This document shows positions 554 through 21,129 of a stretch of DNA of 24,356 bases, piece after piece. Below the pieces are notes generated by a model. It was not told the DNA's origin. It worked only from the letters and a program-made list of their open reading frames with translations, and searched no databases. Both the position numbers and the translations under genes were made by a program. The stretch is from the IMG/VR virus record IMGVR_UViG_3300033144_003827, positions 1-24,356 of that record; one strand, given 5' to 3'. Position 1 is the first letter of the stretch, and each line of letters begins with the position of its first letter. Source of the DNA: a virus.

Positions 554-571
554 TGCTTGTACACAACGTAG
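553..571. repeat. Right inverted repeat flanking the 209-553 gene
   Basis: This is the partner of 153-171 in inverted orientation (GTGCTTGTACACAACGTAG). It begins inside the stop codon of the 209-553 gene, so the gene and the repeat abut directly, as in mobile gene cassettes. Confidence 0.45.
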
Positions 572-599
572 GAATAAACGCCACTAAACAAAAATAACC

Positions 600-653
600 A
601 TGACACCAAAAGAGAAACCAACCAATCAAAACTCCTCAAAGCAACTTAAATAG
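600..653 (+). CDS. Very short ORF, possible gene remnant
   Basis: ATG at 600 gives 17 codons (MTPKEKPTNQNSSKQLK) ending TAG at 651-653, directly before the terminator stem. The opening MTPKEK is one I associate with short Bacteroidota phage proteins that continue into a helical region, but here the reading frame ends almost at once. It may be a truncated remnant next to the cassette boundary, or chance. There is no clear ribosome-binding site. Confidence 0.2.
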   Translation: MTPKEKPTNQNSSKQLK

Positions 654-674
654 ACCTTTAACCGGGTCTTTTTT
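652..674 (+). terminator. Intrinsic terminator
   Basis: AGACC (652-656) pairs perfectly with GGTCT (665-669) around an 8-nt loop, and a run of T follows (669-674). It closes transcription from the accessory gene and insulates the promoter at 713-743. Confidence 0.75.
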
Positions 675-690
675 ATTGCCTAAAACTTAA

Positions 691-706
691 TTTAGATAAA
701 TCTAAA
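691..706. promoter_or_regulatory. Operator-like dyad 1 (TTTAGA-N4-TCTAAA)
   Basis: TTTAGATAAATCTAAA contains a perfect 6-bp inverted repeat around 4 bp. It lies exactly 22 bp upstream of a second copy at 713 and 45 bp upstream of the -7 element. The same pair recurs before the capsid gene (6157 and 6179). The likely ligand is a dimeric DNA-binding protein; no candidate is encoded in the window. Confidence 0.6.
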
Positions 707-712
707 AATAAA

Positions 713-728
713 TTTGGATTAGTCTAAA
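713..728. promoter_or_regulatory. Operator-like dyad 2 overlapping the -33 element
   Basis: TTTGGATTAGTCTAAA differs from the palindrome TTTAGA-N4-TCTAAA by one base in the left half. Its first four bases are the -33 element of the promoter, so a bound protein would touch RNA polymerase (activator) or block it (repressor). It can also fold with dyad 1 into a hairpin with 15 of 16 positions paired, including two G-U pairs, and a 6-nt loop. Confidence 0.6.
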
Positions 729-743
729 AATGTATTACCTTTG
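713..743 (+). promoter_or_regulatory. Bacteroidota-type promoter for the packaging operon
   Basis: TTTG at 713-716, a 19-bp spacer and TACCTTTG at 736-743 match the Bacteroidota primary-sigma consensus TTTG / TAnnTTTG. Transcription would start near 749-750. It follows a terminator and precedes an uninterrupted run of packaging and head genes. Confidence 0.75.
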
Positions 744-748
744 TTGTA

Positions 749-779
749 GGGGTTATGTTTTATTATGAATCATAGCCCC
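749..779 (+). promoter_or_regulatory. 5' leader hairpin, possible stabiliser or attenuator
   Basis: GGGGTTATG (749-757) pairs with CATAGCCCC (771-779) over 9 bp with one G-U pair and a 13-nt loop, followed by CTTTTCTT (780-787). It would form at the very 5' end of the transcript from the 713-743 promoter. It may protect the RNA end or act as a weak attenuator. Confidence 0.45.
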
Positions 780-821
780 CTTTTCTTGCTTTGTGGGGTT
801 GTGGTTCTGATACGGAACTAA
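765..821 (+). CDS. Possible 18-aa leader peptide coupled to ninG
   Basis: ATG 765 begins MNHSPLFLLCGVVVLIRN, a hydrophobic 18-residue peptide. Its TAA (819-821) overlaps the likely start ATG 821 of the NinG-like gene as TAATG, the same junction type used between other genes here. The start codon lies in the loop of the 749-779 hairpin. It could couple translation or be a chance ORF; nothing else supports expression. Confidence 0.25.
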   Translation: MNHSPLFLLCGVVVLIRN

Positions 822-1246
822 TGGAAGCAAAGACCTTAAGAAAATATGACAGCAAGTCAGTGAGTGATCTAATAAAGATCGCAACTAGACACTTCAATAA
901 GTTTATCCGGAACAGAGACAGCAATGAGGGTTGTTTCAAATGCATTAGCTGCAGCAAGGTGAAACCTAATGAAAAACTCCAGGCTGGACACTTCAGAAGT
1001 GCAGGTCATTATCCCTCGGTAAGATTCAACGAAAAAAACGTTCACGGCCAGTGTAAGAGGTGTAACCTGTTTCTGAGCGGCAATCTAGCTGATTATGCCA
1101 AGAACCTAACAGCAAAAATAGGGACAGAAGGAATGCAGGAGATCGAAGATTTAGTAGGAAGGTCAAAGCAACTAGGTTTCAAATGGGATAGAATATCTCT
1201 TATCGAAACAATCGAAAAATACAAGAAACTAAATAAGGAACTATGA
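821..1246 (+). CDS. ninG: NinG/Rap-like recombination nuclease
   Basis: A 141-aa protein of the lambda NinG (Rap) family, which are structure-specific nucleases acting on Holliday junctions and recombination intermediates in the cytoplasm. Visible features are the zinc-binding pair C41xxC44 and C78xxC81, H57 and H63 in a QAGHFxSxGHY block, RFNEKNVHGQC with H75, and CNxxLSGN after it, all in the family order. I chose ATG 821 because it forms TAATG with a leader ORF. A TTG at 791 in frame would add 10 residues (MWGCGSDTEL) that look unlike the family start. It is the first gene after the promoter and overlaps the next by ATGA. NinG usually sits with early replication genes; here it opens the packaging operon, which fits resolving branched concatemers before terminase acts, an inference. 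Confidence 0.88.
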   Translation: MEAKTLRKYDSKSVSDLIKIATRHFNKFIRNRDSNEGCFKCISCSKVKPNEKLQAGHFRSAGHYPSVRFNEKNVHGQCKRCNLFLSGNLADYAKNLTAKIGTEGMQEIEDLVGRSKQLGFKWDRISLIETIEKYKKLNKEL

Positions 1247-1365
1247 TCGAATACATCTTAGAATACAACATGCAAAATCCATTATGCTCAATGCTTTGGG
1301 TAATGTCAATTGTTGGTACAGCAGTATTAATAACACGATCGCTATTTAAGCCTAGAAGTGAGTAA
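1243..1365 (+). CDS. 40-aa single-span membrane peptide, unknown
   Basis: ATG 1243 overlaps the ninG stop as ATGA, and the frame ends TAA 1363-1365, overlapping the next gene's GTG start (1358) by 8 nt. The peptide has a polar N-terminus (MIEYILEYNMQNP), one hydrophobic span (about residues 14-31, LCSMLWVMSIVGTAVLIT) and a basic tail (RSLFKPRSE), which predicts an N-out, C-in membrane anchor by the positive-inside rule. The tight coupling on both sides supports a real gene despite its size. No family is recognised; a role in lysis timing or superinfection exclusion is possible but unsupported. Confidence 0.55.
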   Translation: MIEYILEYNMQNPLCSMLWVMSIVGTAVLITRSLFKPRSE

Positions 1366-1630
1366 GAAACGCAAAATAAAAGACGGCTTCTGGTTCAAGG
1401 TGGTTAACATCGTTCCTAGAATAGATTCACCCGATCTAGAGCTACCTATTTATTGCGTTGAGGAATCAAAAGAAATGGCCTTATACAAATTCAATCTCGC
1501 TATAGGTCAGAAGAAGAAATGCGACTACATCGGTGAAGTGAAAAGCGGAATAATCCAATCAACCGGAGAAAGGTTAGTCATTGGCACTGATAACAAACCA
1601 GTTAAAGACTTAGAAGAAAGGAATAATTGA
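1358..1630 (+). CDS. Hypothetical protein, 90 aa
   Basis: The frame starts with GTG 1358 (MSKKRKIKDGFWFKVVNIVPR) and ends TGA 1628-1630, overlapping the terminase small-subunit ATG as TGATG. It is a small soluble protein with a basic start, a central VEESKEMALYKFNLAIGQKK segment and an acidic end. It has no membrane segment, cysteine cluster or nucleotide motif. Position between ninG and terS in a coupled series suggests a packaging-related accessory role, but nothing in the sequence shows it. Confidence 0.7.
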   Translation: MSKKRKIKDGFWFKVVNIVPRIDSPDLELPIYCVEESKEMALYKFNLAIGQKKKCDYIGEVKSGIIQSTGERLVIGTDNKPVKDLEERNN

Positions 1631-2082
1631 TGTCTTATTCAAAAGAGGAAATAGAGTTTTTGTTTAGTTCCATCTGTAAAAAGATGGGTGAGGAGGGAAG
1701 GTCTTTGAGGTCTGTTTTGAGTGAGGAAGGTATGCCGGATAGATCTACATTTTATGAATGGATAAGAAATGATGATTTAAAATCCGACCATTACGCGCGC
1801 GTGAAAGAAGATAGAGCCGACTATATTTTCGAGGATATACTCAATATAGCTGACGAAACCCATAACGACAGGAGGGTGAAATCAGATGGAGCAGAGGTTG
1901 TTGATCACGAGGCTATCCAAAGGTCTAAATTAAGAGTTGACGCTAGGAAATGGATGTTGAGTAAGATGCTGCCTAAAAAGTATGGCGACAAAATCGATGT
2001 TACATCTGATGGAGATAAAATCGGAGGGGATAAGTCTATAAACATTAGCCTTGATGGAAAGGACATAAACCTTGGTAGCTAA
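1630..2082 (+). CDS. terS: Terminase small subunit
   Basis: A 150-aa protein expected to recognise phage DNA and load the large subunit during packaging. Residues 5-47 form a helix-turn-helix-like segment (SLRSVLSEEGMPDRSTFYEW), followed by an acidic helical region (YARVKEDRADYIFEDILNIA) and the block RSKLRVDARKWMLSKMLPKK with YGDK after it, which is characteristic of small terminases. I use ATG 1630, which overlaps the previous stop as TGATG, rather than the in-frame TTG at 1627. The stop TAA 2080-2082 overlaps the terL start (TAATG). The C-terminal tail is rich in D and G and probably binds the large subunit. The call rests on both sequence and position directly before terL. Confidence 0.85.
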   Translation: MSYSKEEIEFLFSSICKKMGEEGRSLRSVLSEEGMPDRSTFYEWIRNDDLKSDHYARVKEDRADYIFEDILNIADETHNDRRVKSDGAEVVDHEAIQRSKLRVDARKWMLSKMLPKKYGDKIDVTSDGDKIGGDKSINISLDGKDINLGS

Positions 2083-3392
2083 TGAACTTCGATCCTAATC
2101 CTTTGTTTTACCAAATGTGTAACATATTCCAAGAGAATTACACTCCAGACAATAAGGTAGTTATATGTAATGAAGGAGGAACAAGAAGCTCAAAGACTTG
2201 GGATTTATTCCATTGGATTGTTGCTTTCTGTGACCACAACAGGAATCAAGAAAATGAGATTTACATACTCAGAGATACCTTAACTAATTGCAAGGATAAA
2301 ACGTTTAGAGATTTTAAGAAGTGCATGAAGCTTATTGGTTACTCATTTAAATATTTCTCAGAGCATCAAAAGCCTTATGTAAACATATTAGGTAACCACG
2401 TTTTTTTTAGAGGTTTAGATGACGAGAAGAACGCCGAAGGATACCCAAGTGACATTTTGTTTATCAATGAAGCCTTAGAAACTCAAAAGAGTAAAGTTGA
2501 CGGATTAAAAATGAGATGCAGAAAGGCTATGATTCTAGATTGGAACCCAAAGTTTACTGATCATTGGTGCTTTGATTTAGAGGGTCAACCAAACACGTTT
2601 TTCACTAGAACCAATTACAAGAACAATAAGCACCTTCAAGGGTCAATTGTCCGAGAGATAGAGAGTTACGAGCCTTGGCTTCCTGGTAGTTATGAAATAA
2701 TTGATGGAACTGAACTTCACTATAACGGTCAATTAATCGATGCTAAAAATCAACCTCCTCCACACCCAGCAAACATTAATAACAATACGGCTGATGAGTT
2801 TCGATGGAAGGTGTACGGCCTTGGTCTAAGAGGAGCAATGAAGGGTGTAATTTTCAACAATGTCCGATACATCGATGAGTTCCCAAACATAGCTCATACC
2901 TACGGGCTAGATTTCGGGTTTACCAATGACCCTACTGCATTAGTGAGGTATTCTGAAGATTCAACAGACATTTACTTAGAGCTCCTTTGCTACCAACCAA
3001 TCGAAACACCTCAAGAGATTGATTCCTACATGCAGGAGATTGATATTGAAAGAAACGTACCTATTACTGCGGATAGTTCAGATAAATACACAAGCGAGCA
3101 CAGAGGGAGTGTTGAAATGGTAGAGAGTCTTTATGAATTAGGCTGGACTATCGATAAAGTAAGCAAAAGAAAGAACGTAATGTTCTGGCTTCTTTCAATG
3201 AAGAATAAGAGGATAAATATTGTAAAAAATCAATTCTACCCTCAAGCAAAAAAAGAACAACAAAACTACATTTTCAAGGAAATTAACGGAATAGCTATCA
3301 ATCAACCTGTCGATAAGTTCAATCACTTTTGGGATGCTGCTCGATACGCTCACATGGCATATAATCAAGAAACACAAGAAATATACGCATGA
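2082..3392 (+). CDS. terL: Terminase large subunit (packaging ATPase and nuclease)
   Basis: A 436-aa two-domain packaging motor. The N-terminal ATPase has a Walker A of the terminase type, GGTRSSKT (residues 32-39), and a Walker B with catalytic glutamate in ILFINE (125-130). The C-terminal RNase H-like nuclease shows acidic metal ligands in GLDFGF (D277), ITADSS (D331) and FWDAARYA (D418). The length is normal for the family. It starts at ATG 2082 overlapping the terS stop, and overlaps the portal gene by 4 nt (ATGA), so the motor and its docking portal are made together. All key residues appear intact. Confidence 0.95.
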   Translation: MNFDPNPLFYQMCNIFQENYTPDNKVVICNEGGTRSSKTWDLFHWIVAFCDHNRNQENEIYILRDTLTNCKDKTFRDFKKCMKLIGYSFKYFSEHQKPYVNILGNHVFFRGLDDEKNAEGYPSDILFINEALETQKSKVDGLKMRCRKAMILDWNPKFTDHWCFDLEGQPNTFFTRTNYKNNKHLQGSIVREIESYEPWLPGSYEIIDGTELHYNGQLIDAKNQPPPHPANINNNTADEFRWKVYGLGLRGAMKGVIFNNVRYIDEFPNIAHTYGLDFGFTNDPTALVRYSEDSTDIYLELLCYQPIETPQEIDSYMQEIDIERNVPITADSSDKYTSEHRGSVEMVESLYELGWTIDKVSKRKNVMFWLLSMKNKRINIVKNQFYPQAKKEQQNYIFKEINGIAINQPVDKFNHFWDAARYAHMAYNQETQEIYA

Positions 3393-5029
3393 CACTAACA
3401 GACGACGAAGCAATTGACTATATAAAATCCAATCAGTCAATCAAACCAAAATGGAACGAAGCTAGATCTCAATCGAAAGAGCTTTTTGCTTTGATTGAAG
3501 GTTTAGATTACTCTGAGGAGCTAATTAAAAGAATAGAATTTGTCGAGACTGAGGGGAGAGCTAAGTCGAGGAAGAAGTATAGCCGCCCTATTATTGATTT
3601 ATTTGAAAGACTTTCGAAGCCTATAACCAATGTATTTACAGCGACAGGAGGGGAACTAAGATACAATATCGACAACGACGAAACGAGGAAAAAATTCATA
3701 TCCGAAATCACTAATGTCAGAGACAATAAGTCGCTTCGAAAATATCTTCAAAACACTTGGACTAGGATGTATGCGAGCGATCCAAACGGGGTTATATTCT
3801 TAGAATACAACACTAATGAAGAAAAAGGACCAGTTAAAGTTTGGCCTACTTACAAGAGTGCTTTATCGATTAGAAGTTACGTACCTAACGGGCAATTATT
3901 GGAAGTGTTACTATTTGAACCCAAAAAGATTGACGATAAAAATTACTGGCGTATTGTTGATGATAATCAAGATAGAACTTTTAGGCAGGAAGGCGATGAG
4001 TTTATTCTAGAAGAAGATAGGTCTTTTATACATCCATTCGGAAAGGTTCCTGGCGTGATTGCGTCTGACCTTAATAACCTAGGGTGCCCAATTAAATTAT
4101 CAGGATTCAACAAGATAATACCGTTATCTAAGGAGCTTGCTGCTGATAGCTCAGTGAAGACGATATACAAAAGGATCCAAGGAAACCCTATCCATTGGAG
4201 ATATGCGATAAGATGTAAGGACTGTTCGGGTCTTGGTAAGGATGGTAATAAAATTTGTAGTAGTTGCTCTGGAAAAGGAGTGATGAATAATGGGGATGTT
4301 ACAGACATGATTCAGCTCCCTATACCAAGGCCTGACCACAAGGTTCTAGCTCCAGATGTTGCTGGGTACGTTTCCCCAGACCTTGAGTTTTTAGAGTTTG
4401 CAACAAAGGAGATAAAAGAGCTTGAAATTACTGCTCACGAAACTCACTGGGGAACACTATTCGGAGCCAGAGAGGAAATTGTAAAAAGCAAAACAGCAAC
4501 GGAAATCAGGTTTAGTCAGCAACCAATGGAGCAAAAGCTAAATGAATATGCTGATGTCGCTGAATGGATAGAAAAGCAATTATCTGAATGGGTGTTGAAT
4601 TTCTATGATAGCTCAAAAAGCAGGGAGGAGTCCAAGATCATGATACACTACGGAAGAAGATATATCATGGAATCACCAGATGCTATTTTAATCAGGTACG
4701 ATGAAGCAAGAAAAGAACAACAAAACAACGTTGTGCTTGATAGGCTATTTAGAGAGTACTTAACAGCTAAATATAGAAACAATCCGACAGACCTAAAGAT
4801 TAACATCAAGAAGTCAGATGTCGAGCCTTACATCCACATGTCTACGGATGATATCATTACTGTATTCGGAGTGGAGGAAGCTCAACGTAAATCACTTTTT
4901 GAGAAATGGTGGAAAACGCTAGACGAAAAACAAAAAGAAGACAAAGATTCGAGTGTTCTTGAATCAGAATTCAACACCTGGTTCGATCAAAACAAAATAG
5001 CAAATCAAAATCAAAATCAAAATGAATAA
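3389..5029 (+). CDS. Portal protein with DnaJ-like zinc finger insertion
   Basis: A 546-aa portal (head-tail connector ring) candidate by length, position straight after terL and content. The N-terminal half has the basic and helical stretches usual for portals, and the C-terminal part has long helices (ITAHETHWGTLFGAREEIVK, then TATEIRF). Unusually, residues 276-297 carry two CxxCxGxG modules (C276/C279 and C290/C293), the motif of DnaJ cysteine-rich domains, so this region probably binds one zinc ion. I have the impression that related Bacteroidota phage portals share this, which suggests a stable structural insertion. The gene ends in a CAAAAT repeat coding NQNQNQNE and overlaps the next gene by 8 nt. 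Confidence 0.82.
   Translation: MTLTDDEAIDYIKSNQSIKPKWNEARSQSKELFALIEGLDYSEELIKRIEFVETEGRAKSRKKYSRPIIDLFERLSKPITNVFTATGGELRYNIDNDETRKKFISEITNVRDNKSLRKYLQNTWTRMYASDPNGVIFLEYNTNEEKGPVKVWPTYKSALSIRSYVPNGQLLEVLLFEPKKIDDKNYWRIVDDNQDRTFRQEGDEFILEEDRSFIHPFGKVPGVIASDLNNLGCPIKLSGFNKIIPLSKELAADSSVKTIYKRIQGNPIHWRYAIRCKDCSGLGKDGNKICSSCSGKGVMNNGDVTDMIQLPIPRPDHKVLAPDVAGYVSPDLEFLEFATKEIKELEITAHETHWGTLFGAREEIVKSKTATEIRFSQQPMEQKLNEYADVAEWIEKQLSEWVLNFYDSSKSREESKIMIHYGRRYIMESPDAILIRYDEARKEQQNNVVLDRLFREYLTAKYRNNPTDLKINIKKSDVEPYIHMSTDDIITVFGVEEAQRKSLFEKWWKTLDEKQKEDKDSSVLESEFNTWFDQNKIANQNQNQNE
5006..5023. repeat. Hexamer microsatellite (CAAAAT x3)
   Basis: Three perfect CAAAAT units (5006-5011, 5012-5017, 5018-5023) preceded by a partial CAAAT. 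They code for alternating N and Q at the portal C-terminus and run into the ATG (5022) of the next gene. Changes in copy number would stay in frame. Confidence 0.6.
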
Positions 5030-5354
5030 AAATGAAATCGTAGTATGTTCTAAGCATTCAATGCTAAGAAAAGGAACAAAATTCAGTGAGTCGCACACCG
5101 AAGAGTTAAGGACAGGGCTAACAATACCCAGATATATGGTGGATGATTTCAATAGTCAAAGTCAAAATTCCGGCATTATATATAAGATCGATGAAGAGGC
5201 AACGGAAAAATGGGCAGAAGAAAACAACAAGCTAATTGAAGAGCGAAAAGAGAACGAAAATGCGTCAAAGCTTGTATCTGATGCATTGGGAGACTTAGCG
5301 AAAAAAGCTGTTGCTCCAAAGAAAAAAACACCGCAAAAAAGTTCATCAAAATAA
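5022..5354 (+). CDS. Hypothetical protein between portal and scaffold, 110 aa
   Basis: The frame starts at ATG 5022 inside the portal 3' end. The N-terminal half (IVVCSKHSMLRKGTKFSE to the IPRYMVDDF region) looks globular. The C-terminal half is helical and charged, then ends in a lysine/proline/serine tail (PKKKTPQKSSSK). It has no membrane segment or catalytic motif. Its place between portal and scaffold fits a small head protein or an accessory to scaffold or portal assembly; the basic tail could touch DNA. No family is recognised. Confidence 0.7.
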   Translation: MNKNEIVVCSKHSMLRKGTKFSESHTEELRTGLTIPRYMVDDFNSQSQNSGIIYKIDEEATEKWAEENNKLIEERKENENASKLVSDALGDLAKKAVAPKKKTPQKSSSK

Positions 5355-5360
5355 ACACAA

Positions 5361-6152
5361 ATGGCAATTGAAAATTTATCAGCGATAGAGAAATCGTTAG
5401 GACTAGAGGAGGGAACTCTCCAAAGCGCAATTGACAACGAAGAATCCGTGTCAGTTGAAATTCCGGAACTGGAAATATTTACCAAAGACGACTTTAACAA
5501 AAGGATTGAAAATGTAAAGTCAGAAGCCGGCAAAGCTGCGGTTGAGATTGCAGTAAAAAAATCTAGAAACGACTTGGGGTTAGATTTCGAAGGTAAAACG
5601 ATGTCGAATCTACTGGAAGCGCATTCAAAGAAAGTATTGGGCGAAGCTAAAATTGAACCAAATAAGAAGATTGAAGAGCTTACCAAGGATAATGAACTGC
5701 TTAAAACCAATCTTTCCACAATCCAGCAAGAGTTGCAAACCACCAAAGATCAGTGGAGTCAGGAGAAAAGTTCTGCTAAAAGAGACGCCTTAATTTTATC
5801 ATCAATTCCAGAGAATACCATAATCCCAAAACAAGATATTCTATCGATATTCAAATCTACGCACGAAGTAGAGTTTACGGAAGGTGGTGGTCACCAGGTG
5901 AAAAAGAATGGGCAAGTGCAAAAAAACAGCACGAATCTTGACCCTCTTTCAGTAAGTGATTACATGTCTAACTTTTCCACACCGTATCTAAAAGCAGCCT
6001 CTGGAGGTGCAGGAGCAGGAGATGAAACAGGTAATCCAAAGAAAGGATCATTTGAAGCATTTGAAAAAGAGGCAGAAGATGCTGGGTGGTCAATCGAAGA
6101 AAGAAACAACATTATGAGTGATCGGATAAAAGCCGGCACATTAGAAGTATAA
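5361..6152 (+). CDS. Capsid scaffolding protein (candidate)
   Basis: A 263-aa, highly charged, largely helical protein directly upstream of the major capsid gene, which is the standard place for a scaffold. It has a central coiled coil (about residues 100-145, heptad-like leucines in IEELTKDNELLKTNLSTIQQ), a small central domain (about 150-200) with EFTEGGGHQVKKNGQV, and a flexible Gly/Ala linker (AASGGAGAGDETGNPKK) before an acidic C-terminal helix that could bind the capsid protein. No protease motif is seen. The call rests on synteny and composition, since scaffolds are poorly conserved. It is followed by a dyad-rich promoter and not by the capsid gene directly. Confidence 0.7.
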   Translation: MAIENLSAIEKSLGLEEGTLQSAIDNEESVSVEIPELEIFTKDDFNKRIENVKSEAGKAAVEIAVKKSRNDLGLDFEGKTMSNLLEAHSKKVLGEAKIEPNKKIEELTKDNELLKTNLSTIQQELQTTKDQWSQEKSSAKRDALILSSIPENTIIPKQDILSIFKSTHEVEFTEGGGHQVKKNGQVQKNSTNLDPLSVSDYMSNFSTPYLKAASGGAGAGDETGNPKKGSFEAFEKEAEDAGWSIEERNNIMSDRIKAGTLEV

Positions 6153-6156
6153 TAAT

Positions 6157-6172
6157 TTTAGGGTAGTCTAAA
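6157..6172. promoter_or_regulatory. Operator-like dyad 3
   Basis: TTTAGGGTAGTCTAAA is one base away from the symmetric TTTAGA-N4-TCTAAA. It lies 22 bp upstream of dyad 4, the same distance as dyads 1 and 2, and 45 bp upstream of the -7 element of the capsid promoter. Confidence 0.6.
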
Positions 6173-6178
6173 TAATAT

Positions 6179-6194
6179 TTTAGATTGCCCTAAA
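6179..6194. promoter_or_regulatory. Operator-like dyad 4 overlapping the -33 element
   Basis: TTTAGATTGCCCTAAA has one base of asymmetry in the right half. Its first four bases occupy the -33 position exactly as dyad 2 does at the packaging promoter. Confidence 0.6.
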
Positions 6195-6209
6195 ATTTTA
6201 CTATATTTG
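6179..6209 (+). promoter_or_regulatory. Bacteroidota-type promoter for the capsid operon
   Basis: TTTA at 6179-6182, a 19-bp spacer and TATATTTG at 6202-6209 match the TTTG / TAnnTTTG consensus with one mismatch in the -33 element. Transcription would begin near 6215. A separate promoter here would allow the capsid protein to be made in excess over portal and terminase. Confidence 0.7.
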
Positions 6210-6215
6210 AATTAA

Positions 6216-6310
6216 TCCTTACAAGCTGGGATATATCTGCGGTCGTGGATAGGGGCGAATAGGCGGTAGTCTATAAGGAGTTTTGATTTTTTCACTAAAC
6301 ATTTTTTATC
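6216..6310 (+). promoter_or_regulatory. Untranslated leader of the major capsid gene
   Basis: About 95 nt of leader, longer than any other gap in the morphogenesis block. The middle is G-rich (6236-6270) with a TAAGGAG at 6274-6280 that is 30 nt from the ATG, too far for a normal Shine-Dalgarno, followed by a T-rich run up to the start. It also contains GGTAGTCTA (6265-6273), the core of dyad 3. I see no clear riboswitch fold; it may set translation or stability of an abundant message. Confidence 0.35.
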
Positions 6311-7336
6311 ATGCCGAATAGAACGGATGCTAATTTAGTGAAGGCTCAAGCTAAACTTCTTGCTAAGTTTCAGTCTTCCGAATTACGCTTTAGATTTCCA
6401 GCTACGTACTTAGCTTTCAAAACAAGTACACCAATCATGTTCCCAAACTACGTCGAATTAAGAGGTAGAGAAGATAGGGTTATTGAAACAAACTACAAAG
6501 CAAGAACCTCAAGAGCATTGGGTTTAGGTGGTCGTACTCACAACCATACAGGACCTAAAGGGGATACTGCCTTAATGACCCCTGCCTGGAGTACTTACGA
6601 CGATAAATTCAATATCTCGTTGAAGCAAGCTGATAATAGCTTGTACAATCTTCAAGAACAACTTCAAAGTGAATTAGAAAATATCGTAGCTAATTTTGCT
6701 GAAGGATACGAAACGCTAGCTACCAACTACGTGTTTGCCAATCGTTCAGGAGTAAATATTGACACATCTGGAGAGGGAATTTTCAATGGAGCAAACCAAT
6801 CTTTTGAGATTACAGAGGCTACTGAAGGTGATCGATCTATCCAGATTACTAAATCAGTAATGCATTCCAATAAGTACACTGGAGGTTATGTTGTGTTTTG
6901 CGACACTAAGTCCTTCAATAAGTTTGAAGCGGATGCAGCTCAAGGTGCTGGAAACTCAACTAACCTATCTTTCCAATTCAACAATGTCACCTATGTTCAT
7001 TCTGTTGAATTAGGGGCTTTAGCTGCTGGCTTAGGTTATACAAAAGGTTTTTGGGTGGCAGTTGAGCCTGGAACTTTCGGCGTTCTTCCATGGGTTCCTA
7101 AGCAGAACCGAATGGGGGTAAACACTAAAGTAAACCAATACAGTTTGATTAGCAATCCTGTTGACGGAGAGTCTTACGCTGTTCATACCTATGAGGATCG
7201 AGCAGATGACACTGCTAACAACGGATATACTCAGGATGTTGTTACTCAATATGAAATCTCTCAAGACATTTCATTTGTACACGCACCACTTACTACTGCA
7301 AACGAAACAACATTCCAGGCATTCAGCCTAGTTTAA
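6311..7336 (+). CDS. Major capsid protein (HK97-fold candidate)
   Basis: A 341-aa protein expected to form the icosahedral shell. Evidence is its position after portal and scaffold, its own promoter and leader, a length typical of HK97-type capsid proteins without an N-terminal protease-cleaved arm, and an overall mixed alpha/beta composition with no membrane segment. Regions include a basic N-terminal arm (residues 1-30), a long helix (YNLQEQLQSELENIVANFAE, about 114-133, the spine-helix position) and a C-terminal half rich in G, N and beta-prone residues. The coding region reads with well-behaved codons throughout, consistent with strong expression. The stop TAA overlaps the next ATG (TAATG). 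Confidence 0.85.
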   Translation: MPNRTDANLVKAQAKLLAKFQSSELRFRFPATYLAFKTSTPIMFPNYVELRGREDRVIETNYKARTSRALGLGGRTHNHTGPKGDTALMTPAWSTYDDKFNISLKQADNSLYNLQEQLQSELENIVANFAEGYETLATNYVFANRSGVNIDTSGEGIFNGANQSFEITEATEGDRSIQITKSVMHSNKYTGGYVVFCDTKSFNKFEADAAQGAGNSTNLSFQFNNVTYVHSVELGALAAGLGYTKGFWVAVEPGTFGVLPWVPKQNRMGVNTKVNQYSLISNPVDGESYAVHTYEDRADDTANNGYTQDVVTQYEISQDISFVHAPLTTANETTFQAFSLV

Positions 7337-8406
7337 TGTTCGTTAAACAGAAAATAGAAACAGGTTTATTTGGGTCGGTAGGTTTTAGACAGCCTATCGA
7401 CCCGAGTTACCCTATTTTGGATTCAGGTAACATCGAGTCTAGATCTGGGTATTATGTGAACGATAATCCTTTTGCGTCTGTCGAGAATTTAAAGGATACT
7501 CAAGACTACAAGGACGCCGATGACTCTCAGTTTAACACCTACTTATCGAACATTCAAACATCAAGTATCGCGAATGTATGTAATCAGGTTTTCAATGATT
7601 ACGACTTTATCGATTCTCAGGTTCTATACAAAAACGCAATGAATAAGGTTAATGTAGAGACCTTACCAGACGGGTTTGTTGGCTACAAAATAAGAATCAC
7701 AGACGAGAAAAGCGTTGCGTTTAAGATTAGCAAGGTATTTCTTGATTTTCAAGGAACCGGAGATGTTGAACTACTGTTGTTTAACTCCAATAAACTAACC
7801 CCATTATTTAGTGAAACAATTACAATATCCTCAGATCATCAAGTAGAGGAGCTGAATTGGGTCATTGATGACTCAAACGACACCTATAAAGGCGAGTATT
7901 ACCTTGGGTATAACACTCAAGGATTAACTGTTTCGCCATTCAAAAGAGACTACAACAATTCCGATATCATGAGTTCGGTAACTCATTTAGGGATTGAAAA
8001 AATATCCGTACCCAATCACAATACAAACACATTGTTTGATCTAACCAAGCAATCAGGACTAAGTCAAACAACCGGAATAAACCCCTACATACAAGTCTAT
8101 GATGATTTCACTGATGTAATCATTCAGAATCAAAACTTATTCAGTAGAGCAATTTACCTGGATATGTGTGTATCTGCAATTACCCGGTGTATTAACTCAA
8201 AGCGATCTAATTACAATGAAAGAAACGCAGATCGTGACTTGAAGCGAATGATTGCCGAGGTTGAAGGGCTGAACACCGAAGGAGGGTTTAAGATAAAAGG
8301 ACTTAAGCCACAGTTAAAGTATGAAATTTCACAGATAAGGGAAGAATTAAAAAAACTCAAGGAGGGTTTTTTCATTGATGGACTAGAGGTAATTACATTG
8401 GATTGA
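7336..8406 (+). CDS. Virion structural protein, head-associated, unknown family
   Basis: A 356-aa protein starting at ATG 7336 in TAATG overlap with the capsid stop. The N-terminus is glycine- and proline-containing (GLFGSVGFRQPIDPSYP), the middle (about residues 120-200) is beta-rich with a jelly-roll-like alternation (VAFKISKVFLDFQGTGDVEL), and the C-terminal 80 residues are helical and basic and end in a coiled coil (YEISQIREELKKLKEG). I recall similar proteins after the capsid gene in Bacteroidota phages. A head-decoration, neck or head-closure function is plausible from position only. Confidence 0.7.
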   Translation: MFVKQKIETGLFGSVGFRQPIDPSYPILDSGNIESRSGYYVNDNPFASVENLKDTQDYKDADDSQFNTYLSNIQTSSIANVCNQVFNDYDFIDSQVLYKNAMNKVNVETLPDGFVGYKIRITDEKSVAFKISKVFLDFQGTGDVELLLFNSNKLTPLFSETITISSDHQVEELNWVIDDSNDTYKGEYYLGYNTQGLTVSPFKRDYNNSDIMSSVTHLGIEKISVPNHNTNTLFDLTKQSGLSQTTGINPYIQVYDDFTDVIIQNQNLFSRAIYLDMCVSAITRCINSKRSNYNERNADRDLKRMIAEVEGLNTEGGFKIKGLKPQLKYEISQIREELKKLKEGFFIDGLEVITLD

Positions 8407-8921
8407 TGGCATTGATTTTAAAAGATAACCCCGTTGGAGTCGATGCTAAAATCGATGTAATTCAAAGAGTTCTATTTGACAACCTGCAATGGACCAATTA
8501 TGAAAGCTACCACAGAGCATACATAAACCCTAAAGATGGGAAAAAGATACCTGAAGTATATGTCGGTAACGGTGAGTATCAAGAGGTGTTTTACAATGAT
8601 GAATTTACAGCATCATCTCACTTCATAGTTCAAAACGACAGACGCTTTGGAGAGCTTTATCAAGCCGAAGTATCGTTGATATTTCACGCGAATCTCGAAG
8701 AATTGTATCCGTCAATTTTACATAGAGCTGATGAGGAGATGCATAGACAGATATCCTTAATCCTTGAAGATAATCAATCCATTGCTGAATTAAATAGACT
8801 GGTTACTGGAGTTGATTCAGTTTACAGGGGTCTAGACGTGTCTCGAGTTACATTCACAGACATGAGTGAAAAACACGTGGTAAGATTCGACTTAACTATT
8901 AACTATCAATACATCTGCTAA
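8406..8921 (+). CDS. Head-tail joining or tail-completion protein (candidate)
   Basis: The start is ATG 8406 (MALILKD), overlapping the previous stop as TGATG; the in-frame TTG at 8403 is less likely. The 171-aa protein has an RAYINPKDGKKIPEVYVGNG block, an EYQEVFYNDEFTASSHFIVQ strand region and a C-terminal alternating strand ending in TINYQYIC. The size and position between head genes and tail tube match tail-terminator or connector proteins. I have seen this type of protein in Bacteroidota phage gene orders, but no motif proves the role. Confidence 0.65.
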   Translation: MALILKDNPVGVDAKIDVIQRVLFDNLQWTNYESYHRAYINPKDGKKIPEVYVGNGEYQEVFYNDEFTASSHFIVQNDRRFGELYQAEVSLIFHANLEELYPSILHRADEEMHRQISLILEDNQSIAELNRLVTGVDSVYRGLDVSRVTFTDMSEKHVVRFDLTINYQYIC

Positions 8922-9898
8922 TGACGAACACGATAGTAATAACAAAAAAACAAAACGACACAATTCTAGTAACTAGAGGTTCTTCATTTAGAAAGCAGCT
9001 AAGTCCTAGTTTGACAGTTTATGAAACTCCAAAAGGTGTTGATATAAGAGATTGCGACAGAAGCGCTGAAAGCTTTGATTTCGATCAGGTTTTAGAGGTT
9101 GTAAGGAAGGACGGGACAGTAGTTCCGATTAACGACAAAGCAACCCTTTTCGACGAATTATCCACTTACTTTTTTTTTAAACCAGCTGCATTTGGCGAGC
9201 CGCTGGTTCCTAGCACTAACGTTGTAAACGATTTTGCGAGTCTTCCACCATTCGGTGATCATTTAGGGGAATACTGGCAGGTTGATAATGCTACAGGCTG
9301 GAGGTTATTACTTACATATAAAGCTTCTGGAGTTTACAAAGCAGAAGTATCTGGGTGGCGTAAAATAAACGACGCTCAAGCCTTGTTTGCTGACAATCAA
9401 TTCCTAGTTCAAAATTCAATCGATCCTACTAAAGGTCTCCGGTTTAGTGTTTCTTCCATTGGAACAGGAGCCCAACAAACAGCTTCTTGGAGGAATCAAA
9501 GCGGAATTGTGGCGTTTCTATCTGATCTTATTTACGGGTCTAACAAGAATTACCAAGAGAATTTAACCGAAAACTCCACTAATGGAGGGGTTCCTCTACT
9601 TCAAGTCTCTGCATCAAATATCGGGCTACCTAACGGGAGGTATGAATTTAAGTCATACTGTGAACTAAACAACTCAACAATCAATGGAACCGCAGTAGCA
9701 AGATCTACTGTAAAAGGTACAATAGTATCCGAGTCACCAATAGAACCCAAAGACAACGATAACTACTACCCCATAATGACATTTGGAGAGGTTGATGTAC
9801 TTGACGGGAACATGAACGTCGATTTAGAATTCTTCAATCTAGGATCTGGAACGGCTAGTTGCAGAAATGCTAAAGTGAAATACAAGAGAATCGCTTAA
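8921..9898 (+). CDS. Virion protein with fibre-type motif
   Basis: A 325-aa protein. The central region (about residues 110-205) carries a string common in phage fibre and appendage proteins: FASLPPFG followed by GEYWQVDNATGWRLLLTYK, then WRKINDAQALFADNQF and DPTKGLRFSVSSIGTGAQQT with WRNQSGIVAFLSD. The D-TK-F-VS-I-TG and SG-VAF spacing is the signature. The N-terminal 100 residues (ITKKQNDTILVTRGSSFRKQ) and the C-terminal beta-rich domain look different, so it is probably modular. Finding fibre motifs here, between head-tail joining genes and the tail tube, suggests a head or neck appendage. Sharing of adsorption functions with the fibre at 22137 is an inference. Confidence 0.65.
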   Translation: MTNTIVITKKQNDTILVTRGSSFRKQLSPSLTVYETPKGVDIRDCDRSAESFDFDQVLEVVRKDGTVVPINDKATLFDELSTYFFFKPAAFGEPLVPSTNVVNDFASLPPFGDHLGEYWQVDNATGWRLLLTYKASGVYKAEVSGWRKINDAQALFADNQFLVQNSIDPTKGLRFSVSSIGTGAQQTASWRNQSGIVAFLSDLIYGSNKNYQENLTENSTNGGVPLLQVSASNIGLPNGRYEFKSYCELNNSTINGTAVARSTVKGTIVSESPIEPKDNDNYYPIMTFGEVDVLDGNMNVDLEFFNLGSGTASCRNAKVKYKRIA

Positions 9899-10800
9899 TG
9901 GAATTGACTTACAACATATCGCAGACGGTTAATTCTAAGGTGAATATTGATAGACTTCAGTACGATGTTGAGGATATAAGCTCAGACGTAACTCATATAA
10001 GTTCAGTTAATGGTGTTATCACTATTTATTCGTCTACCGAACTAAGTCAAGAACAAGTTTCATCTATTGGTCAAGCTGTATCTAGTCACGAAGGAAGCCC
10101 AATTCCGAAGCATCGGATCGAACAAGATACAGAAGAAAATAAGGGATTCTTAAGTATTAATTACAAAACCGAATTAAAAGACGGTATATCCTATCACCCG
10201 GTTTACACAATTAATGATGATGGGCTCTTGGAGAAGACAGAATATTTCAGAGGATTTGTTGATGAGAACAATAAAGGAGAATTAGTTCTGCAGGTAGAAG
10301 AGGTATACGATGTCAATGAAGATGTTTCGATTCCAAAATCAGCCAGAGAAGTAAATTCAAGGGAGAAAACTTGGAAGCATTACCGGACGGATGGAGTTTT
10401 AGACGAAAAGAAAAAGAAGAGGAGGCCAAAAAAATACGACACCAGGGAAAAACGACACAAAGAAGGGGTTAGAAGACGAGCAAACCTCGAAGAGCAATTG
10501 ATTGACCGGGTGTCACTAGCTGGGTCTTTATCTGGGGCTTTTGTTGGGTCAAATAGTGATGAGATTAAATCAGACGCATACAATAAGCTAACAACCCTGC
10601 AGGAAACACATAGCTCATCTTTTTCAGCTTGGAGAAACAGTGGAAGAGGGTCTATTTATAATGATCTATCAAACGAATCTATTTCGTGGGTCAATATTGT
10701 TGTTCCTGACACCCCATCAACCCAGGTAAAGTGTCCCTGGATTATTGGAATGACATTAAAGGGGTATATGGTGGAAAAGCTAAAAGGAGAAATTAAATAA
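9898..10800 (+). CDS. Structural protein with basic linker, unknown
   Basis: A 300-aa protein beginning at ATG 9898 in TAATG overlap. The N-terminal part (1-160) is beta-rich and acidic. A very basic linker follows at about residues 162-200 (KKKKRRPKKYDTREKRHKEG then VRRR). The C-terminal 100 residues look globular, with ITTLQ-like helices and a WIIGMTLKGYMVEKLKGEIK end. The basic linker could bind DNA or RNA or a negatively charged partner. No family is recognised. Its place in front of the tail-tube gene fits neck or tail assembly. Confidence 0.65.
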   Translation: MELTYNISQTVNSKVNIDRLQYDVEDISSDVTHISSVNGVITIYSSTELSQEQVSSIGQAVSSHEGSPIPKHRIEQDTEENKGFLSINYKTELKDGISYHPVYTINDDGLLEKTEYFRGFVDENNKGELVLQVEEVYDVNEDVSIPKSAREVNSREKTWKHYRTDGVLDEKKKKRRPKKYDTREKRHKEGVRRRANLEEQLIDRVSLAGSLSGAFVGSNSDEIKSDAYNKLTTLQETHSSSFSAWRNSGRGSIYNDLSNESISWVNIVVPDTPSTQVKCPWIIGMTLKGYMVEKLKGEIK

Positions 10801-10836
10801 CAAACAATTTTCAATAACAAATAAAAACAGATAAAA

Positions 10837-11802
10837 ATGGCAACAGCTTGCACATGTAATGTAGGATTAGGGAACACAGGTTCTCCAAACTGCATACCGT
10901 TAATGGACGCTGCATTGTTCTTCATTGCAGTGCCTTATTTTAGAGCCGACGGGTCGGTGAATGGGATCGACTTATCAACTCTGCCGGGAGGGAAATTAAA
11001 CCAAACCTTTTTGGACGAACAAATTCGAAACGCTGATGATCAGGAAAGATGGAGAATTCTTCCTAGAATGAAAAACGTAACCGACGAAAGAGGAGACGAT
11101 ATTACAGAGGATTTCGATGATCAAACATCGGTATTTATCCAGCAAGGAATTCGATCAGTAAGCGCCTTAATGCTTAAGCAAGGACCAACGTTACTTGGTA
11201 TTCTTGAAGGCTTTAGATGTGCTTCTGTTGGATTGTTCGTGGTTGATAAAAGCTTCAATTTAATTGGAAATTGCTCACAAGACGGATTCTTGAATCCTAT
11301 CAGAGTTTCAGACGAGACATGGTCTCCAATGTTGATTAAAACAACCGACACTACCAAACAGAAGATTCAATTGAATTTCCAATGGGACATTTCAGAACAA
11401 GACAAAGACTTGGCTCAAATTGGGGCGTCCGACATCACAGCAAACTTATCGAATGCTAGAGCAATGATTGACGGTGTAGTTTCATTAGCAGTTAATTCTG
11501 CAACACAAGATTCAATCACGCTGACATTGAATACCCTTTATGGAGATAAATTAAATCCAATTCCAGCTGCGGGAATGACTAATGTTAGTGATTGGAGCCT
11601 GTTTAATAGAACTACTTTATCTCCAATGGCTGTAACGTCTGTTAGCGTTGCAGGTGACAACTCTTACACTTTGAATTTCATTGCTGAAAATATCGGGGAT
11701 GTAGTTGAGATTGAAAGCGGGCAAGTACCTGGGACAATTGTTTCGTCGATCTACAATAAGATATACGATATAACTAAGTATTCACACACACTTACAGCGT
11801 AA
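10837..11802 (+). CDS. Tail tube protein (candidate)
   Basis: A 321-aa protein, the first gene after the head-joining set and upstream of the small tail-assembly genes and the tape measure, which is where the major tail protein normally lies. The N-terminus is short and Cys-rich (ATACTCNVGLGNTGSPNC), a start I associate with Bacteroidota phage tail proteins. The remainder is beta-rich, with a possible Ig-like C-terminal part (SPMAVTSVSVAGDNSYTLNF, about 265-285). A 36-nt A-rich gap separates it from the previous gene, one of the few gaps in this region, which may allow better translation. No promoter motif is seen in the gap. Confidence 0.7.
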   Translation: MATACTCNVGLGNTGSPNCIPLMDAALFFIAVPYFRADGSVNGIDLSTLPGGKLNQTFLDEQIRNADDQERWRILPRMKNVTDERGDDITEDFDDQTSVFIQQGIRSVSALMLKQGPTLLGILEGFRCASVGLFVVDKSFNLIGNCSQDGFLNPIRVSDETWSPMLIKTTDTTKQKIQLNFQWDISEQDKDLAQIGASDITANLSNARAMIDGVVSLAVNSATQDSITLTLNTLYGDKLNPIPAAGMTNVSDWSLFNRTTLSPMAVTSVSVAGDNSYTLNFIAENIGDVVEIESGQVPGTIVSSIYNKIYDITKYSHTLTA

Positions 11803-12014
11803 TGAGTAAGATACAAACAGAAAAGACAGTGGGTAATTTATCTATTCGAACTGAAGCCCTCGCTAAGATGACTGAAGCAACTTTTAGGGAGAAATTTTCA
11901 GGAAAAGTAGAGAACATTAATGCTGTCTGGGAGGAGTTAAAACCCTACGCTAAAAAAACAACAAAAAAAGGGACAAACGAGTCTCGCGCTAAGAAAGGTG
12001 ACACCCCCTCTTAA
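11802..12014 (+). CDS. Small basic protein after tail tube, 70 aa
   Basis: ATG 11802 overlaps the tube stop as TAATG. The protein is helical (LSIRTEALAKMTEATFREKF), with an SGKVENINAVWEEL segment resembling short HeH-like DNA- or protein-binding motifs, and ends in a lysine-rich tail (KKTTKKGTNESRAKKGDTPS). The stop lies inside a strong hairpin. Position fits the first of the small tail-assembly proteins. Two A7 runs occur in its 3' part (in AAAAAAAC and AAAAAAAGGG), but neither alternative frame extends beyond 12018, so programmed frameshifting is not supported here. Confidence 0.65.
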   Translation: MSKIQTEKTVGNLSIRTEALAKMTEATFREKFSGKVENINAVWEELKPYAKKTTKKGTNESRAKKGDTPS

Positions 12015-12031
12015 TTGAGGGGGCTTTGCCC
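12004..12031 (+). terminator. Strong GC hairpin at gene end (terminator-like or RNA-processing)
   Basis: CCCCCTC (12004-12010) pairs perfectly with GAGGGGG (12017-12023) around TTAATT. The loop holds the stop codon of the 70-aa gene. A competing hairpin GGGC (12021-12024) / GCCC (12028-12031) shares bases with it. There is no proper T-run, so it may reduce, process or protect the transcript instead of ending it; tail genes continue just downstream without a visible new promoter. Confidence 0.5.
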
Positions 12032-12039
12032 GTTGTTAT

Positions 12040-12051
12040 GTAAAGCTTTAC
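12040..12051. repeat. 12-bp perfect palindrome in tail intergenic gap
   Basis: GTAAAGCTTTAC is self-complementary. It lies in the 64-nt gap between a strong hairpin and the next tail gene. It could be a protein site, but a palindrome of this size in AT-rich DNA may be chance. Confidence 0.25.
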
Positions 12052-18590: not shown

Positions 18591-21129
18591 AACAACAGAG
18601 AGCAAATTTTATTACCAAGGATCAAATGGTGAAAACCTCGATTTAAACCCATTACAATTCACGCAGAATTTAGCTGGTGGTGTTTTAGAAAGAGTTAAGT
18701 CGGTAAAGAAAGTAGCTGTCTCTGTACTTACGGATGCCTCTGTAGGTGTACCGTTCTTCGTAGATGGAAACGTTTTATACAGAACTTCAGGAAGTTTTGT
18801 TGATGCTGGTTTCTGGGTAGGTGATACGATAAGTGTATTTAATGAGTCAATTGGTGGAGGATGGATATTTGAAGATAGGGAGATCACCAGTATTTCAAAC
18901 GACGGTCTTCAGGTTTATTTTGATGGCCTTCCTGTTGCTGCGGTTGGTTTCGGTTCTGGTAGTTGTTACAATAAAACACCGTTAAGAGCTTTTCAATTAG
19001 GCTTCGGGATTATTCAAAACGATGAATCGTTCAATGTAATTTCAAAGATCGATGGTAGTTCTCAGCAGTTTTATTCACCGACTGAGGTTGGAGCTGGTCC
19101 TGTTGGCGCCAGAGACACATCCTTTCAAGACTGTATCCCATTAGGTACAACTAGATCATGGCTCACCAAAGATCAGGTTAGGGTTCGATTCGTTCAAGAT
19201 CTCCCATTCACTGAACTTGAAGGATATCCGCAAGAATTTGAGATTGAGCACACTTTTGAAATAGTGCCATTTGTTTTGGACGGTGAGCTTGGGAATCTTC
19301 AGAATGATATACTGCCAGAGTTGTTCCAAAACAACAACTCATTGAAGTACGCGTTTGAAGCTGAGTTTAAAACAAGTAATTCGAATCCTAACACAGCAAA
19401 AACCGGCAGGTTTGAACAGTCATTAGGAGCTGTAAGCTGGTTTAACAGAAACTTCAACAATCTAAACAATCAGTACAGCGTAGACTCAGTCGATCATACT
19501 GATGACTTAACCGCTCAAGTTGTAGATTCAATCCAAGTTGGAGCAATCACCAATAACACCCTTGTATTAAATTCAGCAGACGGGACATTTGTAAACGGTC
19601 AAAGAGTCATTTTAGATGTTTTCTACCTGGCTTCTGAGTCTGAATACCTACCTAACCCAGACGATCCAGCTTCGAGTGTAGTTTCAACTCATGACGTTCA
19701 CGAGAATTTTATATGGGAAAAGGTGGTTCTTCAGATTGGTTTAGGTAGTAGTTCATCAGGATTTATTATTGATGCTTCAGCTACTTTGCTTGGCCCAAGT
19801 CAGATTCAAATCGATTTTCAAACTCAGTATAGCGCAAGTGAACAACTCAGATTAGATCAAACCAAATACTATGGTATTGCTGTTAATTTATCAGATCAAT
19901 CAGTAGGACCTGAATTTACAGATAAGGTTCCTTTACTTTGCGAAGTAAAAGAGTATACTAAATCGGTAGATGTTCCAGATCTATTCACTGTCAATGGAAA
20001 TATTAGAGTTTTTCCGCATAATCAAAACATTGGTGTTGATTCAGGGTATACTGACTTCAAGGGCTGGGTTGAAGATGGGGTTGTACTACAGATTCCATTT
20101 GGGTTAAACTTAGATCAAATTGCTAGAGTTCAAAGTTTAGAGGTCGGAGTCATTGCTTATAACCCAATAGATGGAGATTTATTTGTGATTGATAAGTTCA
20201 ATATTAGCCTGTCTAGTCAAGTGCTGGCACCAAACGGAACTCAGTACTTTACATTGGACGGAACAAGGAACTACAAACTTGAAGATGGGAGTCAATTTAA
20301 CACACTTCAGCTGGGGCATCAGGGAACAACATTTATAAAGCCCTCCACAGTTGAACCAGGAGTGGATATTACTTACAACGGGTACTTACTTACCTGCGGT
20401 TACAAAATCCCATGGCAAGAGTGGGATTCAATTCAGGCGAATACTTCCTTTTTTAATCCTTCTCAAGAGAATAATGGACTAAATAAGAATACTTCAAATT
20501 ATGCAGGCTCTACTTTACCGGACACCACACCAAATCCGTACATCGTTGCTATGTCGGTTATGGCAAGTGTTCTAGTTGCTAATGAAGATTCGAATGACTT
20601 CGGGACTGTTACACAGTATACCTCAATTACTTCAGCTTGTACAGTTAACGATTATAGCGAAGGAAGTTCCTTTCCAGGGTGGGCTGTTTCTATAGGTACG
20701 TCTACGGTCGGTGGCGCTGATCTCGAAGGTAATATTGCTGATAGTGAAAACACGTTAATCACTACTACTTATACACCTTCAGGAGGAGATACCTCAATAA
20801 TAACAGATCCTTATGGAATAGATCGATTTGACAATGCAAACGGAGGGCCGATTTCAATAAGAGAGTTATCATCAATTCGAGGGTCAGAGTCGGATAATCC
20901 ATTAGTTCCTGTTGCAGGAGAAACATTCTTAAAATTAACAGACAATGGGACGGAAATTGTTACAGAGTCAATGATTGATTTTAACAGGATAGACCCGACC
21001 ATAGGAAAAAGAATAACCTCAAGACTGGGTTGTTTGTCTTCATCTGGCGGAATTCCACCCGGAGCAAAAATTACTGAGTCAGGAATTGTGAAGGTAACTG
21101 AGTCTGGGGATATTAAAGTAATTGAATAA
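18580..21129 (+). CDS. Large tail-tip or baseplate structural protein, 849 aa
   Basis: An 849-aa beta-rich protein with few charged clusters, many G, N, S, T and aromatic residues, no signal peptide and no membrane span, as expected for an extracellular virion appendage. The first 130 residues (KFYYQGSNGENLDLNPLQFT, VGVPFFVDGNVLYRTSGSFV) look like an attachment domain. The centre (about 250-600) has repeated beta blocks, and the end carries a short internal repeat, ITESGIVKVTESGDIKVIE, preceded by EIVTESMIDFN. Homologous large genes follow the hub in several Bacteroidota phages as I remember them, but I cannot name a domain. It could combine baseplate and receptor contact. It overlaps the next gene by TAATG-type linkage. 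Confidence 0.7.
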   Translation: MAFRTTESKFYYQGSNGENLDLNPLQFTQNLAGGVLERVKSVKKVAVSVLTDASVGVPFFVDGNVLYRTSGSFVDAGFWVGDTISVFNESIGGGWIFEDREITSISNDGLQVYFDGLPVAAVGFGSGSCYNKTPLRAFQLGFGIIQNDESFNVISKIDGSSQQFYSPTEVGAGPVGARDTSFQDCIPLGTTRSWLTKDQVRVRFVQDLPFTELEGYPQEFEIEHTFEIVPFVLDGELGNLQNDILPELFQNNNSLKYAFEAEFKTSNSNPNTAKTGRFEQSLGAVSWFNRNFNNLNNQYSVDSVDHTDDLTAQVVDSIQVGAITNNTLVLNSADGTFVNGQRVILDVFYLASESEYLPNPDDPASSVVSTHDVHENFIWEKVVLQIGLGSSSSGFIIDASATLLGPSQIQIDFQTQYSASEQLRLDQTKYYGIAVNLSDQSVGPEFTDKVPLLCEVKEYTKSVDVPDLFTVNGNIRVFPHNQNIGVDSGYTDFKGWVEDGVVLQIPFGLNLDQIARVQSLEVGVIAYNPIDGDLFVIDKFNISLSSQVLAPNGTQYFTLDGTRNYKLEDGSQFNTLQLGHQGTTFIKPSTVEPGVDITYNGYLLTCGYKIPWQEWDSIQANTSFFNPSQENNGLNKNTSNYAGSTLPDTTPNPYIVAMSVMASVLVANEDSNDFGTVTQYTSITSACTVNDYSEGSSFPGWAVSIGTSTVGGADLEGNIADSENTLITTTYTPSGGDTSIITDPYGIDRFDNANGGPISIRELSSIRGSESDNPLVPVAGETFLKLTDNGTEIVTESMIDFNRIDPTIGKRITSRLGCLSSSGGIPPGAKITESGIVKVTESGDIKVIE

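Follow-up and report, generated by a model that had tools for sequence, protein, structure and literature searches.

The packaging and capsid operons of an uncultured tailed phage are each preceded by a promoter that carries two 16-bp dyads. These paired dyads are most readily read as operator boxes for a metalloregulator of the DtxR/MntR family, most likely the host's own, that would repress both late operons; we put the probability of this reading at about 0.66. The sequence and geometry of the boxes, their overlap with the promoters, their positions at the operons, and their identity with a host box that keeps the same 22-bp register were seen directly.

Paired dyads at the packaging and capsid promoters

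The window, the whole stretch of DNA that was analyzed, is a complete IMG/VR record, a linear fragment of 24,356 bp that holds the structural half of a tailed phage, with genes for NinG, TerS, TerL, portal, head structural protein and tape measure. The NinG-like gene (833..1246; PF05766, E = 1.7e-29) is the first of the packaging operon and is followed, according to the protein annotation of the window, by genes for an Sf6-like terminase small subunit (1627..2082), the terminase large subunit (2082..3392) and the portal protein (3389..5029). The second operon begins with a gene for a head structural, probably major capsid, protein (6311..7336; phrog_7231), and all of these genes lie on the plus strand. 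Relatives of the window's TerL and tail proteins come mainly from phages of Flavobacterium, Cellulophaga and other Bacteroidota, and the phage apparently infects Flavobacterium-like bacteria.

Two sister contigs match the window at 99.99% identity over 563-12040. Because this identity marks them as the same phage, they carry no independent evidence that the paired dyads are conserved. Sharp mosaic junctions separate them from the window, with other genes to the left of about 563 (563-565) and, between 12040 and about 16333, a replaced tail region that includes the tape measure gene. An end-overlap search for the rest of the phage found no overlapping contig, BLAST of the promoters and of the whole window against known phages gave no near match (the promoter matches were weak or due to chance), and an Rfam search returned no match.

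The dyads have the form TTTRG-N6-CYAAA, and pairs of them occupy positions 691-728 and 6157-6194. At the first site, box 1a (TTTAGATAAATCTAAA, 691-706) is a perfect dyad, and box 1b (TTTGGATTAGTCTAAA, 713-728; compare TTTAGATTAGTCTAAA at host locus L276) begins with the TTTG (713-716) of the -33 element. At the second site, where the sequence was likewise read directly, box 2a (TTTAGGGTAGTCTAAA, 6157-6172) is followed by box 2b (TTTAGATTGCCCTAAA, 6179-6194), whose first four bases, TTTA (6179-6182), stand at the -33 position. Boxes 1b and 2b both end exactly 7 bp short of a TAnnTTTG element on the plus strand. This -7 element is TACCTTTG (736..743) in the promoter of the NinG/terminase/portal operon, with a predicted start near 749, and TATATTTG (6202..6209) in that of the capsid operon, with a predicted start near 6215. 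A prior sequence-only reading had described tandem 16-bp dyads that start 22 bp apart and depart from symmetry by 0-1 base each, the second of them over the -33 element, together with a 19-bp spacer and a 53-bp span that recurs at the other promoter. Direct inspection of both sites bore out this description in full.

Both promoters fit the host consensus TTTG/TTTA-N19-TAnnTTTG closely. Since they are near-consensus for the host polymerase, repression is the expected effect of a protein that covered the -33 element and the spacer, and the position of the boxes could let a bound protein block RNA polymerase. Each 38-bp pair of dyads also forms a larger palindrome, with 14 of 19 and 15 of 19 base pairs, and a third, lone half-site (GCCTAAA, 678-684) lies upstream of site 1 in 22-bp register with box 1a. 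In the second dyad of site 1 a single base breaks the symmetry, giving TTTGG for TTTAG. Because this same base makes the TTTG of the -33 element, promoter and operator look jointly selected.

An intrinsic terminator-like hairpin on the plus strand (AGACC-loop-GGTCT and a T run, 652..669) stands between the upstream gene and the late promoter, so that site 1 looks like a genuine operon start. A further hairpin, GGGGUUAUG...CAUAGCCCC followed by CUUUUCUU (749..779, plus strand, z = -3.5), is stable, lies where the packaging transcript is predicted to begin, and may serve as an attenuator, a terminator or a transcript-stability element; A755G, the only sister-contig substitution nearby, retains a pair in it as G-U. 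The capsid 5' leader RNA folded no better than its shuffles.

A matching box upstream of host DtxR/MntR-family genes

A scan for the pair of dyads alone recovered about 20 further phage contigs, several of which carried at least three copies at 22-23 bp. In these phage 22-bp arrays, the positions left free by the scan pattern showed a preference for TTTAGRCTAGYCTAAA (half-site TTTAG-R-C-T). Because this preference resembled a DtxR-family operator, host DtxR-family loci were tested directly. A PF02742 gene was present in 30 of 31 Flavobacteriaceae genomes. Upstream of the DtxR/MntR-family gene, 20 of the 30 loci carried an exact TTTAGN6CTAAA, which in most of them stood at nearly the same distance, about 20-55 bp, ahead of the start codon; seven more carried a variant, TTTAAGN4CTTAAA. 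Other members of the phylum, beyond this Flavobacteriaceae set, have the TTTAGN6CTAAA form upstream of their DtxR-family gene as well. The variant box belongs to a Flavobacteriaceae subgroup (L296-L302) and is close to the SRE1 site of SloR; it suggests a specificity shift within the family. The same dyad was found upstream of none of 30 host FUR loci and none of 30 host Nramp loci, and a FUR and Nramp regulon was rejected on this count.

The host protein has about 218 residues and contains PF01325, PF02742 and FeoA domains. Its relatives include SloR, ScaR and MntR, and its closest solved structures are metal-dependent regulators, SloR and ScaR among them. The host gene is often followed by one for a metal transporter of the ZIP or ZnuA type, and in several cases it is the first gene of an operon with such a transporter. 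The protein presumably autoregulates through its upstream box. A box in 22-bp register upstream of the Flavobacteriaceae MntR-type gene is a useful result by itself, and we found no description of it in the literature searched.

The register of the phage boxes was also assessed at the host loci, with a neighbor counted when it matched at least 7 of 10 half-site letters. A second copy lay near the host dyad at +22 in 12 of 27 loci and at -22 in 9 of 27 (z = 4.1 and 2.5), and the other counted offsets gave 0-2. These results indicated that the 22-bp register is a property of the host box and not of the phage alone. Host half-sites prefer TTTAG-R-Y-W, and the window halves continue mainly as A-T-T or A-C-T; at the R-Y-W core (half-site positions 6-8), six of the eight window halves fit. 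At host loci L282 and L285 the dyads end 8 bp before TATATTTG, compared with 7 bp in the window.

Several observations count against a host DtxR-type protein as the binder. The two remaining window half-sites, with GGT and GGC at the core (GGGT/GGGC), fit the host preference poorly, the TTTAAG variant is the form used by Lacinutrix, the nearest MAG host, the box is missing upstream of Nramp genes, and TerL relatives of the window phage lack the boxes. In hosts a good dyad is accompanied by a degraded one, and exact tandem pairs are almost absent: they occur in 0 of 300 Flavobacteriaceae genomes and 1 of 395 Bacteroidota genomes, counts that ruled them out as a host-wide regulon. Whole-genome enrichment of the single dyad was weak and uninformative, with a match in 25 of 148 genomes and in fewer with the reversed control. 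The host protein is nevertheless the most likely binder, because nearly every sampled Flavobacteriaceae genome has one, most with the same box.

Other phages and other possible binders

Boxes in 22-bp register also lie at packaging genes in an unrelated phage, G687. Its 22-bp-period array of TTTAGGCTNNCCTAAA-type dyads (L210 10399-10670, which is G687 28399-28670) stands beside the terminase genes and, although its boxes are about 380 bp from the first of them, supports the recruitment of such boxes at packaging genes. Further phages, whose records form two related pairs, have two to four boxes at or near 22-bp spacing (L202 427-488, L205 3230-3290, L211 953-1012 and L217 11469-11810), in non-coding DNA close to small uncharacterized genes. 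Flavobacterium phage FpV9 (L266) has promoters at 20010, 27076, 29641 and 36658 with a common upstream TTAAAAAATGTTTT, another phage-specific promoter family.

Conservation in related phages, which the sequence-only reading had named as a check, did not hold up: the operator was found in none of the TerL and NinG relatives of the window phage. One TerL relative, G822 (L015), carries tandem dyads of a different sequence, AACATATTTTGTT, 21 bp apart. Ahead of the packaging region, two promoters have these dyads directly against the -7 region, and one of the two is closely preceded by a terminator; single copies of AACATATTTTGTT occur at two further late promoters. In this 53-kb temperate relative (L270-L272) the four AACATATTTTGTT late promoters are at 20565, 22878, 27501 and 41646. 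The late promoters of G822 are like those of the window in their paired dyads and unlike them in operator sequence. Paired dyads on late promoters are thus a recurring solution, of which the metalloregulator box is one version.

The tandem dyads of G822 also indicate that phage-specific paired operators exist in this neighborhood, and they lend some weight to a different binder. A phage-specific regulator of the XRE/CI/Cro kind could bind the paired dyads cooperatively and time the late operons, with the resemblance to the host box arising by convergence. Lambda-like operators have a similar spacing, and G822 encodes several XRE proteins. A 17-bp dyad of G822, TTTAGAATAAATCTAAA, lies near an XRE gene and could be an operator, but it is within chance; a candidate XRE-linked array, L048, was dropped when its dyads proved to be within a coding frame. 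In sequence, however, the operator of G822 has no relation to the window boxes, which agree with the host DtxR upstream box in sequence, in core preferences and in the exact 22-bp register. A convergent XRE-type operator is therefore unlikely.

The identity of the boxes would be the same if the phage encoded a DtxR/MntR paralogue in its unsequenced half and used it as its own metal-responsive late repressor. The window is only a 24-kb fragment, with the early half, the likely region for a regulator, outside it, and the phage sites are better than the host sites, as a dedicated regulator might favor. No regulator families were found among the scanned window proteins, which represent the structural half. 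A PF01325 (DtxR-type) gene above the family cut-off was absent from all 29 related or array-bearing phage records, and DtxR homologues in the phage collection were limited to eight unannotated records, none named as coming from a Bacteroidota host. A paralogue of this kind is quite unlikely, and a host DtxR-type protein probably binds the phage sites. The earlier suggestion of one dimeric regulator on both promoters is plausible and likely right, the sites overlapping host-type promoters of the packaging and capsid operons; that this regulator is an undescribed phage protein is improbable, given the 29 phage records and the occurrence of the same dyad, core and 22-bp register upstream of host DtxR/MntR-family genes.

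The bound protein might also activate the late promoters instead of repressing them. Late promoters usually need activation, and the upstream dyad is centered near -50, a possible activator position. Both promoters, however, already match the host consensus, and the downstream dyad lies over the -33 element and the spacer, a position from which SloR is believed to repress mntH by steric hindrance (PMC12096823). Activation is very unlikely on these grounds, and binding to the phage boxes would be expected to repress.

The rarity of the arrangement was assessed with a 26-position composite, which scores 26/26 at both sites. The best score elsewhere, either at the next-best unrelated position of the window or in 60 third-order Markov windows, was at most 21/26. 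Generic tandem near-perfect dyads with an equal half-site arose at 0.1 per simulated window, and none of the simulated windows held two matching tandem dyads. Across all of IMG/VR, the geometry of three half-sites and a -7 element was found only at these two promoters, the sister contigs included. A broad variable-spacing scan was dominated by coding-phase and other-phage matches, and 22 bp alone gave no peak. The concern that dyad pairs might be frequent by chance was thus answered by the simulations and by the genome counts given above. In this AT-rich region, single dyads with no more than two mismatches are common, but the notion that the dyads are chance AT-rich palindromes is contradicted by the simulations, the whole-collection IMG/VR scan and the genome scans, and can be dismissed.

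Proposed metal control of late genes and its precedents

In a metal-replete cell, two metal-loaded dimers of the host regulator would sit side by side at each promoter, two helical turns apart on one face of the DNA and possibly bound cooperatively. The downstream dimer, placed on the -33 element and the spacer, would shut out RNA polymerase with the host sigma factor, and the packaging operon (NinG-terS-terL-portal) and the capsid operon would be silent together. Metal scarcity, or a regulator that is inactivated or titrated by replicating phage DNA, would derepress both operons together. Metal is the probable signal at the phage boxes.

The more specific proposal, that virion morphogenesis is under the direct control of a manganese/iron sensor of the host through doubled, better-than-host boxes at the packaging and capsid promoters, is evenly balanced in our estimation. 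Under this proposal, several unrelated phages with 22-bp-periodic boxes would use the same trick. If it is true, phage assembly is tied to host metal nutrition through a protein that most of these bacteria already have, and the timing of the burst is predicted to change when metal is chelated or the host regulator is lost. We know of no described late-gene regulator for Bacteroidota phages.

Among known systems, the non-canonical LexA box of Bacteroidetes, CTAA-N5-TTAG, belongs to a phage-like regulator (PMC8565304). It resembles the window dyads in its TTAG/CTAA half-sites and its phylum, but the order of the half-sites is opposite and the spacing different; CTAA-N5-TTAG is absent from the window, and this box was ruled out. 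The box at the Flavobacteriaceae DtxR gene shares with the window the TTTAG-N6-CTAAA form, the core preference, the 22-bp register and, at some loci, a position 8 bp before TAnnTTTG. A host promoter usually combines one good dyad with a degraded neighbor, whereas both phage promoters have two dyads that are near-perfect.

SloR of Streptococcus mutans and the Flavobacteriaceae host protein are related, both being of the DtxR/MntR family. At mntH, SloR binds SRE1 (TTTTAAGCATACTTAACA), a 6-6-6 dyad over the -35 element, and SRE2, which lies 4 bp upstream of SRE1, the two being about 22 bp apart; binding is cooperative and metal-dependent (PMC12096823). The window promoters are alike in having two imperfect dyads about 22 bp apart, with the downstream one over the -35 region. 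They differ in that the SloR site belongs to a bacterial transporter promoter and has the half-sites TTTTAA/TTAACA in place of TTTAG/CTAAA.

The closest precedent is corynephage beta tox in Corynebacterium diphtheriae, where the metal-activated DtxR of the host represses a phage-borne promoter through a single operator that holds two DtxR dimers on nearly opposite faces (PMC9693595). The arrangement proposed here is similar in placing a metal-activated host repressor of the DtxR family on a phage promoter. Unlike the single tox operator, each window promoter has two separate dyads 22 bp apart, and the proposed control would act on two core operons, for packaging and for the capsid, where tox is a single accessory gene of the phage cargo. 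Host-type DtxR/MntR boxes at promoters for phage morphogenesis are the best reading, a variant of the DtxR-tox theme that, if true, would take this theme beyond cargo and into the core programme of morphogenesis.
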